From the NCBI GenBank assembly GCA_026706075.1, contig JAPOZM010000122.1:1-64000 (forward strand): a stretch of 64,000 bases of DNA, in the 5' to 3' direction. The stretch is from Gemmatimonadaceae bacterium. GTDB taxonomy: Bacteria; Latescibacterota; UBA2968; UBA8231. A model generated the notes under the pieces. It did no database searches, had not been told where the DNA came from, and saw only the letters and a list, made by a program, of their open reading frames with translations. This document shows, piece after piece, positions 42,182 through 45,765 of this stretch (position 1 is its first letter; each line of letters starts with the position of its first letter). The position numbers and the translations under genes were made by a program.

Positions 42182-43552
42182 TCACCGCCGCCGGACGGCC
42201 CCGGGATAGCGGGAAAGGATGAAGTCCCGAGCCGTCCTCCCTCCCACCAGATCGTGGTTGTTCCGCAGACACCAGACACGGAACGACTCGAGAAGGCTTT
42301 CCTCCTCCTCCGGGATCCCGGCGTGGCGCGCGTAGTCGAGCAGGATCGACTCGTACTGGCTTTTGTCGGGGAGATCCAGATAGATCTTGAGGGCAAAGCG
42401 GTCGTCGAGGGCGCGCCTCTCGTCGAGGCGCTGGAAGGCCTGTGGATCGTAAGGCCAAGGTGCGGCCGTGGCCGTTGTCCGCCGGTCCGCCGGTGCACCC
42501 TCCACCTGCAGGGGCGGCGGGCCCTGAGGCCTGTCCCCTTCGCGGTCGATCAGGTCCTTGAAGTTCGAGGTGGCATAGAAGACGAGATTCACCGGAACCT
42601 GCTCGAGGCCGCCGTCCAGAACGCTCGACAAGGCCTTGGCCAAAGAGCCGCGGCGGTCGAGGCCGATGTTGTCGAGGACGGCGATGAAGCGCTCTCTCCG
42701 TTGCCGCACGAGAGCGAACAACCGGGGTAGGAGGCCGTAGCTCGCGGCCGGGACTTCGACGCCGCGGAGCCCGCGCTCCCAGTACCGGGTGATGAGTCCG
42801 CGGATCAGGGAGGACTTGCCGCATCCCCTCGGCCCCCAGATGAGGGCATTGTGGGCCCGGTACCCCTCCAGGAGGTTGCGGGTGTTCTCGTCCAGAAGCC
42901 GCATGCGCTGCTCGTTGCCCGCCAGCCACCCGAGGTCGAAGGCGTCGAAGTCGCGGATGGGAGTGAGCCCCGGACGGCCAGCCTCGACGAGCTCCAGGCG
43001 ATAGGCGGGGCACCCCTGCTCCCTCCCCAGGCCATAGCGATAGACCAGCTCGCCCAGGCCGCGGACCAGCTCCTGCCAATCCGGAGATGCCTTCTCGAAC
43101 TTCTCGCGCAACCGGCAGTGGAGGGTCGAGACCGACCAGGGCGGGACCCCCGTCGACCAGGGATCGGGGGCGACCGCCGGCTCCCGCGGGGCTGCAGGCT
43201 GGGGAGCGGAAGCGACCTCTCCCACGCAGGCGTCGACGGCGTGGGCCACCGATTTCAGCTGCCGCAGGTCCTCGACCATCCGCTCGGCGAAGATGGCGGG
43301 CACTCCCTCCGGCCCCAGAACGGCGCACCGCCGCAGATAGGGGTGAGAATCGTCGGTGCAGATACGGTGGCCGAGGTACTGGCCGAAGGATTCGGTCCGG
43401 GGTGCGGAGACCGCCGTGCACGCCTCGATGAGACGCCATCGGCTGGCCGTCAGCCGGGTGTCGTCCCGGCAGGTCCCGGACCGGGCGGAGCGGTCAAGCA
43501 GATCGCTGGCGGCCCGGGCCACGGCCGGAGGCAGGATGGGCCAGTCGGCCAT
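42182..43552 (-). CDS. DUF815-family AAA+ ATPase with long N-terminal extension
   Basis: A 456-residue protein. The DUF815 core starts near residue 225 (GNEQRMRLLDENTRNLLEGYRAHN). Walker A is GPRGCGKSS, and the Walker B region FIAVLDNIGLD keeps Asp but lacks the usual double acid. GGLEQVPVNLVFYATSNFKDLID is the sensor 1 region and DDRFALKIYLDLPDKSQYESIL the lid. Residues 1-220 are not assigned. I chose ATG 43552 for its GGAGG six bases upstream; a TTG at 43657 would add 35 residues. The role of DUF815 ATPases is unknown. It lies directly downstream of the cysS remnant. Confidence 0.82.
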   Translation of the reverse strand: MADWPILPPAVARAASDLLDRSARSGTCRDDTRLTASRWRLIEACTAVSAPRTESFGQYLGHRICTDDSHPYLRRCAVLGPEGVPAIFAERMVEDLRQLKSVAHAVDACVGEVASAPQPAAPREPAVAPDPWSTGVPPWSVSTLHCRLREKFEKASPDWQELVRGLGELVYRYGLGREQGCPAYRLELVEAGRPGLTPIRDFDAFDLGWLAGNEQRMRLLDENTRNLLEGYRAHNALIWGPRGCGKSSLIRGLITRYWERGLRGVEVPAASYGLLPRLFALVRQRRERFIAVLDNIGLDRRGSLAKALSSVLDGGLEQVPVNLVFYATSNFKDLIDREGDRPQGPPPLQVEGAPADRRTTATAAPWPYDPQAFQRLDERRALDDRFALKIYLDLPDKSQYESILLDYARHAGIPEEEESLLESFRVWCLRNNHDLVGGRTARDFILSRYPGAVRRR

Positions 43553-43635
43553 AAGGGCCTCCAGCAGGCCCCGGGCGTTCGAAGGTGAGGACCCCGCAGC
43601 GTCGGCTGCGACCACGGGCCGGCGAACACACCCCG

Positions 43636-44610
43636 TCAAGGGGGGTCCCACTTCCAACGAGGGCCGTCCGGCGTGTCGGTGACCACCACTCCCGAGGCCA
43701 CCAGCTCGGCTCCCAGGGCGTCGGCGCGGTCCCAGTCAAGGAGGTTCCGAGCCTCCTCTCTCTCCTCCACCAGCCGGCGGAGCTGCGGAGGAAGCTCTGG
43801 ATCCTCGTCTACCGCTTCGTCCCCAGGGGCCTCTTCGATAATTCCGAGGACGGAGTCCACCTCCTCGATCAGACCGGAAACGCGCAGGGCCTCGGGTGCG
43901 GGCAACTCCCCGGAGGAGAGTGCTCGCTCCGCATCCGCGACGAGGTTGAAGACGGCTGCCATCCCCGGGGAGGCGTTCAGATCGTCATTCACGTTCAGAT
44001 CGTCATTCATCAGATCGTCATTCATATGTTCGATGAAGCCCCGCCCGGGCTTGCGCAACGGGACCGCACCCCCAGGGACGCCTTCGTGAAGTTCAGCGCG
44101 GTACGGCAGTGGTTGGTGACTACGAAGTAGCGGAACCCGCAAACCACCTCCCCTCTCCCGGCACCGTCGACGAGGCCGGCGAGGTCGCGCAGCAGGAGCT
44201 GGTTGCCGAGGCTCTTGTAGAGCTTCACCCCCTCGATGTTGATGAACTCAGTGTGCATCCAAGTACCTGGACAGGGTCTGGCCCGTGGCTCCTCGCTCTG
44301 GGCGACCTCGTTCTGAATGGCCCGGCTGTCGACGTGAGCGAAGTCACCGTACGCGGGGAAGCGGGCGATGGAGAAGTAGACCGATCCTTCGTGAACATAG
44401 GCCATCCCGCGCTGGAGGAGCTGCTCGACGAGTCGCACCATCTCCGGAATGCTCGGTAGCCCGTGGATAGTGGTCTGCCCGCTGGATCCCGAGGTCCGAG
44501 CTCCTTGAAAAATCGAAGAGGCGCTTGCCGCGGCTGGCAGTGTCGTGGAAACGGATCATCCGGCCCGCCTCGACCTGCCCCCGGAGGGCGTGAGCGTGCC
44601 TCTTGGAAGG
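43636..44610 (-). pseudogene. cysS: Decayed cysteinyl-tRNA synthetase gene
   Basis: CysRS pieces can be followed in order over three frames. LGIQRADHYPRATEH (about 44460-44510) is followed by a frameshift, then MVRLVEQLLQRGMAYVHEGSVYFSI. NEVAQSEEPRARP remains of the HENEIAQSE zinc region, but the preceding catalytic and zinc-binding part is gone. EGVKLYKSLGNQ replaces EGxKMSKSLGN. After ALNFTKASLG another frameshift leads to MNDDL and an otherwise normal C-terminal domain ending RWKWDPP. The 5' third with the HIGH motif is missing. An intact cysS must exist elsewhere. A tandem repeat lies inside. Confidence 0.88.
43978..44024. repeat. Triple 14-bp direct repeat in the cysS remnant
   Basis: Three copies of CAGATCGTCATTCA start at 43978, 43996 and 44011. 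On the minus strand they encode three NDDL units where functional CysRS has one MNDDLN. They probably arose by slippage after the gene lost function. Confidence 0.9.
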
Positions 44611-44736: not shown

Positions 44737-44813
44737 TGGCACCCCCGACAGGATTCGAACCTGTGACCCACAGATTAGGAATCTGTTGCTCTATCCTGCT
44801 GAGCTACGGGGGC
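44737..44813 (-). tRNA. tRNA-Arg (anticodon CCT)
   Basis: A 77-base tRNA on the minus strand. Acceptor strands GCCCCCG and CGGGGGT pair with one G-T wobble. The anticodon stem ACAGA/TCTGT holds loop TTCCTAA, giving CCT, which decodes AGG arginine. GGTTCGAATCC is the T arm, and CCA is encoded. Confidence 0.97.
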
Positions 44814-45108: not shown

Positions 45109-45761
45109 ATGGCGCAGGTTTTCCATCGCAGCATCAACTGGGTCGCCAAGCTGTCCATCCTCCTTCTGCTCGCCCTCGCCAGCCTGTGCCTCGCCATCCT
45201 CCTGAACATCAACCGGCTCGACTACGTCAGCCACGTGGGCTTGGCCAAGGATCAGCCGGTCCCCTTCTCGCACAAGCACCACGTCACCGGCATGGGCATC
45301 GACTGCCGCTACTGCCACACGAGCGTCGAGGAGTCCGCCTTCGCCGGCATCCCGCCCGTGGAGACGTGCATGACCTGTCACTCCCTGGTCTGGACCGAGG
45401 CCCCGTTGCTCGAGCCCGTCCGGACGGCTTGGCGGGACGAGGTCCCACTGCAGTGGACCCGGATCCACGACCTGCCCGACTTCGTGTACTTCCGGCACGA
45501 CATCCATGTCGCCAAAGGGGTCGGCTGCACCAGCTGTCACGGGCCGGTCGACCAGATGCCCCTCATGTACAAGGAGAACACCCTGAACATGGAGTGGTGC
45601 CTCGAGTGCCACCGCGAGCCCGAGAGGCAGATCCGGCCTCGCGACCAGGTATTTGACGTGACTTGGTCCCCCCCCGCTGACCAGGAGCGCGCCGGAGCGC
45701 GGCTGGTGGAGGAGTACGACGTGCAGGTTTCGCAGCTGACCGACTGTTCGGTCTGTCACCT

Positions 45762-45765
<4 letters not shown>
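45109..45765 (+). CDS. actA: Alternative complex III subunit ActA, pentaheme cytochrome c
   Basis: A 218-residue membrane-anchored multiheme cytochrome. An N-terminal transmembrane segment (about residues 12-35) is followed by five CxxCH motifs: CRYCH, CMTCH, CTSCH, CLECH and CSVCH. HKHHVTG and NMEWCLECH match ActA. It carries electrons from quinol oxidation in ACIII towards the terminal oxidase. It is the first gene of the operon, and its stop overlaps the GTG of actB. Confidence 0.95.

Follow-up and report, generated by a model that had tools for sequence, protein, structure and literature searches.

What charges tRNA-Cys in a bacterium whose gene for cysteinyl-tRNA synthetase (CysRS) has been wrecked? 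This question is raised by a 64,000 nt stretch of DNA (termed the window) at positions 1 to 64,000 of contig JAPOZM010000122.1, which belongs to a metagenome-assembled genome (MAG; GCA_026706075.1) of a Latescibacteria-related bacterium. On the minus strand of the window, at positions 43654-44559, lies a dead cysS gene that we call T1. Very probably, this native gene is decaying at its ancestral locus after a second CysRS (T2), acquired horizontally, made it redundant. Five parts of this explanation were computed directly: T1 is broken, it is syntenic with the intact T1 genes of relatives, an intact T2 is present in the same bin, T2 falls among the CysRS proteins of other phyla, and one congener combines an intact T1 with a decayed T2. 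On this reading, the locus shows an essential gene partway through its displacement by a xenologue.

A dead cysS gene in its ancestral place

A decayed cysS next to a tRNA-Arg gene had been proposed in an earlier note made from the letters of the window, and homology searches bear this out. When the intact T1 of the congener G001 was used as a tblastn query, segments were recovered between positions 43600 and 44736 at E values of 1e-15 to 4e-25. Their scores were 93.6, 90.1 and 64.7 bits, compared with 23.1 bits for the top of 200 triplet-shuffled versions. Frameshift-tolerant alignment to T1 of both G001 and a second congener, G003, requires frame changes near 44448, 44294, 44265 and 44072, and thus the two or more frameshifts that the note had counted become at least four sites. 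The same alignments lack residues about 157-235 and part of 318-362, where residue numbers are those of the matched stretch (the full protein is numbered three higher).

The pieces that survive can be followed along the minus strand. The ATG and the first 17 residues of T1 (MIRFHDTASRGKRLFDF) are still present at 44559-44509 and align to residues 3-17 of G001 CysRS. The score of this piece was reached by 0 of 2000 shuffles against G001 and by 1 of 2000 against a third congener, G002. Just upstream of the next piece (44449-44493; residues 101-115), a deletion has taken out residues about 18-100 and, with them, CGPT and HIGN. Because the N-terminal 17 residues continue almost straight into residue 101, the HIGH region has been excised, which goes beyond mere degradation. 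A remnant of residues 117-156 follows at 44328-44447, frameshifted at about 44448, and behind it a second deletion has removed residues about 157-235 with the zinc-site Cys, WDSPWG and GGxD. The remnant of residues 236-316 (44073-44315) contains the frameshift sites near 44294 and 44265, and carries KLYKS at 44211-44225 where KMSKS is expected. Of the features of functional CysRS (TIGR00435), the remnant lacks both HIGH and the zinc ligand near the N-terminus (CGPT), as well as the zinc-site core (HLEC, HHxNE), of which QNE alone is left; the zinc role of the CGPT Cys and the zinc-site motifs are assumed here to be as in E. coli CysRS. The note had likewise reported the loss of the HIGH and zinc-binding parts and the KLYKS substitution, and had overlooked the surviving start codon and 17 residues.

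The C-terminal DALR_2 and CysS_C (anticodon-binding) remnant at 43654-43995 has a frame that is still open, but it is a remnant and not a working gene. Pfam models recognise the catalytic domain (PF01406), DALR_2 and CysS_C in separate open frames of the minus strand, and TIGR00435 matches the remnant only in pieces of 36.7, 32 and 28.3 bits that do not share one frame and lie far below the cut-off of 340. Three tandem copies of an NDDL-coding motif, spaced 18 and 15 nt apart, are located at 43974-44024. The note had called these a slippage repeat; the three copies are there, but they are not foreign to the gene, as each repeats the DDLN motif native to CysRS. Since the motif occurs as a single copy in the T1 genes of intact relatives, the copies are most naturally read as a local expansion within the dead gene.

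In relatives, the gene order is smpB, glyoxalase, DUF815 ATPase, coiled-coil protein, cysS (T1), dicarboxylate/glutamate symporter, pentapeptide-repeat protein, tRNA-Arg(CCT) and a multihaem cytochrome gene, which we take to be actA; smpB, glyoxalase and pentapeptide repeat are likewise names that we assign from sequence. This order was followed over the entire stretch in G001 and G010, and over the part of the contig read in G002 and G003. In the window the flanks of the locus are intact while cysS is wrecked: the DUF815-type ATPase gene lies at 42182-43657 (minus strand), an intact tRNA-Arg(CCT) gene at 44737-44813 (minus strand) and the actA gene, a conserved anchor, at 45109-45765 (plus strand). 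Because the intact cysS of relatives sits between the DUF815 gene and tRNA-Arg(CCT)-actA, T1 of the window is the ancestral copy, which is decaying where it has always stood. The interval between the DUF815 and tRNA genes has lost the coiled-coil, symporter and pentapeptide genes. A symporter homologue (53% identical) is found at another site in the window genome, and a search of that genome for the coiled-coil protein returned no homologue. The coiled-coil-looking protein beside cysS (618 aa; L040:4829-6685) exists in several copies in congeners and belongs to no NCBIfam family.

The same site was inspected in two genomes of another genus (g7) that carry T2 only, G009 and G018, and no T1 match was present in either. 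G009 retains the coiled-coil gene there, and in G018 the DUF815 and tRNA genes alone stand beside the cytochrome gene. The resident cysS has thus gone from its ancestral place, leaving a wreck in the window and no T1 match at the site in these two genomes.

A second CysRS and its phylogenetic origin

The earlier note had argued that a second cysS copy must exist, and an intact T2 was indeed found. The top cysS match of the window genome ends with contig C115 at model position 305, and the remainder opens contig C109. The two contig ends have in common an exact 55-nt sequence, which is unique to them within the genome, as expected from an assembly-graph break. Joined, they encode a protein of 457 aa that scores 379 bits against TIGR00435 (cut-off 340), carries HIGN at 37, HTEC at 217, HHVNE at 245 and MSKS at 278, and has solved CysRS structures as its top PDB matches. 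T2 is about 42% identical to the T1 proteins of congeners, and both are class I CysRS. T2 is predicted to charge tRNA-Cys in the window organism. An alternative route to Cys-tRNA through SepCysS (TIGR02539) was rejected, as this model gave only sub-threshold matches in the window genome (best 48.8 bits; cut-off 365.25), and became superfluous once T2 had been found. On the T2 contig, an ORF overlapping the start of cysS (L038:953-1279) may encode a HicB-like protein and another (L038:4660-5025) a HicA-like one, neither of which has an NCBIfam match.

T1 of the family (f1) joins family f4 of the same class, with a support of 99 in a quick tree and 100/99 in a later one. T2 clusters with CysRS of Chloroflexota and Pseudomonadota in a clade (100/100) that lies outside T1, f4, the other sampled families of the phylum and the lineage of family f3. 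Its nearest rows outside the family are from Chloroflexota, in a tree whose backbone is not resolved. The candidate reading that T2 is the class's own vertical enzyme was rejected: TIGR00435 scores are also low in f3, yet f3 makes up a third lineage that does not fall within the T2 clade. The tree bearing on f3 used 8 of 12 additional stretches (those from G006, G033, G028 and G037 were left out). L035, L085, L104 and L150 (incomplete, or duplicates of other rows) and roughly three quarters of L113-L171 were excluded before the quick tree was built, and the later trees used hand-picked subsets of sequences.

The phylogenetic comparison that the note had proposed for the functional cysS thus reveals no duplicate of T1, but another type nested among the enzymes of other phyla. 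Its suggestion that cysS had been replaced by horizontal transfer is now the best-supported reading, because T2 is nested in other phyla and the dead T1 is vertical in descent and stands at the syntenic place. T2 is accordingly best regarded as a xenologue of foreign phylogenetic origin and T1 as the vertically inherited copy.

Two further kinds of CysRS were encountered in these trees. MAGs titled Gemmatimonadetes and Latescibacterota (L106, L107) carry another T2-type CysRS that branches away from the T2 of the family, and its placement suggests further independent transfers of this type. The CysRS of G006 (genus g4 of the same family; L083, G006:C41:28333-29814) sits on a very long branch and is neither T1 nor T2.

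Opposite fates of T1 and T2 within one genus

Among 25 genomes of the family, T2 is carried by 10 (the window genome, g6 and eight of g7), T1 by 11 and the divergent CysRS by G006. Three g7 bins that are 75-87% complete show no CysRS of these types; the three genomes scored as unknown, which gave no match to the T2 query, are G012, G019 and G022. None of the 25 has both T1 and T2 intact. The congener G002 has an intact T1 and, on another contig, a decayed T2 in which residues 8-58 are joined to 277 onward and the N-terminus is in another frame. This remnant is sister to T2 of the window genome (100/100). T1 and T2 have met opposite fates within one genus, a reciprocal loss. Absence of T2 from G001 and G003 is weak evidence, because the congener bins are incomplete (76-87%).

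These observations are consistent with a simple course of events. T2 would have been acquired by horizontal transfer from an unrelated lineage, the two genes would have stood side by side for a time in the genus, and mutation would then have removed whichever copy was dispensable, T1 in the window genome and g7 and T2 in G002. We infer that T2 arrived before the species split and that the opposite losses followed. The T2 neighbourhoods of the window genome, G002, g6 and g7 have no common gene besides cysS, so it is the tree, and not the surroundings, that argues for common descent of T2 in the window genome and G002. Relatives of one T2 neighbour, which we take to be heparinase-like, occur in G009, G002 and G008, but not on the contigs that carry T2 there. 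As the flanks differ, separate late transfers of T2 from one donor lineage are possible.

A variant of the displacement explanation is that the genus of the window and g6/g7 gained T2 separately, rather than the family gaining it once. We lean slightly towards separate gains, since careful trees keep the genus apart from g6/g7 and no neighbours are common to them, even though a quick tree joins both groups (SH-aLRT 90) and a single T2 clade is not rejected (AU p = 0.306). It is also conceivable, if rather unlikely, that both enzymes were long functional in the genus, each giving something that the other lacked, and that this dual use was resolved oppositely in sister species. If so, the genus would be a natural experiment on which of two essential synthetases survives.

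Two observations on individual genomes may be added. G021, which has a full T2 elsewhere, carries an additional piece of the T2 N-terminus where a contig ends (L088, G021:C27:3-239; 77% identity). In a tree of actA+actB (L049, L048), G002 groups with G004 of another genus (100/99), whereas the T1 cysS tree places it inside the window's genus (g1); exchange of the respiratory locus in G002 is possible. Because the two trees disagree on G002, actA+actB was not used to date the loss.

If T2 were a binning contaminant, the true functional cysS of the organism would be missing from the assembly and the wreck would have some other cause. The estimated contamination of the bin is 9.08%, and T2 is split over two short contigs (5.7 and 6.4 kb). 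However, the GC contents of these contigs (0.664 and 0.695) match the mean of the window genome (0.696) and not those of relatives, which in the pieces tested are near 0.59-0.60 for congeners and 0.48-0.64 for other family members. In distance from the composition centroid of the window genome, C115 is equalled or exceeded by 13 of 57 pieces of 6 kb from that genome and C109 by 52, whereas each of 12 pieces from relatives is equalled or exceeded by only 0 or 1 of the 57. GC3 is 0.92 for T2 and 0.85-0.91 for window genes. Furthermore, no second T1 was found in this 96%-complete bin. The composition of both contigs, together with the decayed sister of T2 in G002, makes contamination unlikely, and we give the account that depends on it little credence. 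The GC content of about 0.70 in the window genome (e.g. L178-L197), against about 0.59-0.60 in pieces of G001 and G002, is itself a large shift inside one genus.

The protein remnant of T1 has changed more than its intact counterparts. Over 231 aligned positions with G010 as the outgroup, 41 amino acid changes are specific to the remnant versus 19 to G001, and 37 versus 18 to G002; with G005 as the outgroup, the counts are 41 versus 20 and 36 versus 16. The intact T1 proteins of G001 and G002 are even (13 versus 16; 231 positions, outgroup G010). T1 in the window thus shows about double the lineage-specific change of intact relatives, which is relaxed selection. Third codon positions differ at about 0.6 in all T1 comparisons, the remnant no more than intact pairs, and are saturated, so dating the loss by synonymous change was abandoned. 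Because the wreck keeps its codon structure, constraint probably acted on T1 along much of its branch, and the death of the gene would be comparatively recent.

That codon structure also bears on whether the DALR_2 and CysS_C frame (43636-44142) has been kept as a short gene with a new role, such as tRNA binding. The frame is open, and its third codon positions differ from G001 at 0.64, compared with 0.41 and 0.33 for first and second positions, yet recent decay leaves the same signal and open frames are cheap at about 70% GC. Its listed start codon, TTG, falls within the remnant, the frame contains a frameshift as well as the repeat, and the amino acid difference there is 0.56, versus 0.43 between intact G001 and G002. 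We therefore consider a retained short gene very improbable. Weakest of all is the proposal that the gene is intact and its disruptions are sequencing or assembly errors, for which the reliance on a single MAG might speak but which we practically dismiss, given that cysS has lost two large coding segments, has at least four frameshift sites and shows a repeat expansion, and given also the roughly doubled amino acid change, open genes on either side and a 164-kb contig.

Relation to known displacements

Trees have made the transfer of aminoacyl-tRNA synthetases a familiar event, but usually nothing is left of the displaced gene. The displacement of T1 by T2 is known in kind, but it is unusually well resolved: a native gene and the foreign one that replaces it, a congener with the opposite outcome and the emptied sites of a sister genus form a time series of the replacement of an essential gene. 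These results also suggest that, in this group, cysS should not be relied on as a single-copy marker. No comparable cysS case was found in the literature searched, whose coverage takes in few subscription journals.

Xenologous displacement of aminoacyl-tRNA synthetases has been surveyed (PMC2651853), and Table 1 of that survey includes a CysRS that moved from Bacteria to Methanosarcina and Archaeoglobus. As in the cases tabulated there, a resident essential synthetase has given way to one of distant origin. What differs here is that the displaced gene can still be seen at its ancestral locus, and that a congener has the opposite outcome. Replacement via a stage with both enzymes has been proposed for LysRS1 and LysRS2 (Shaul et al., 2006; PMC1475646), and the course suggested for T1 and T2 likewise includes a period in which a cell has two synthetases for the same amino acid. 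LysRS1 and LysRS2 belong to structurally unrelated classes, whereas T1 and T2 are both class I enzymes at the identity given above. A further difference is that the intermediate is visible in this genus as reciprocal pseudogenes.
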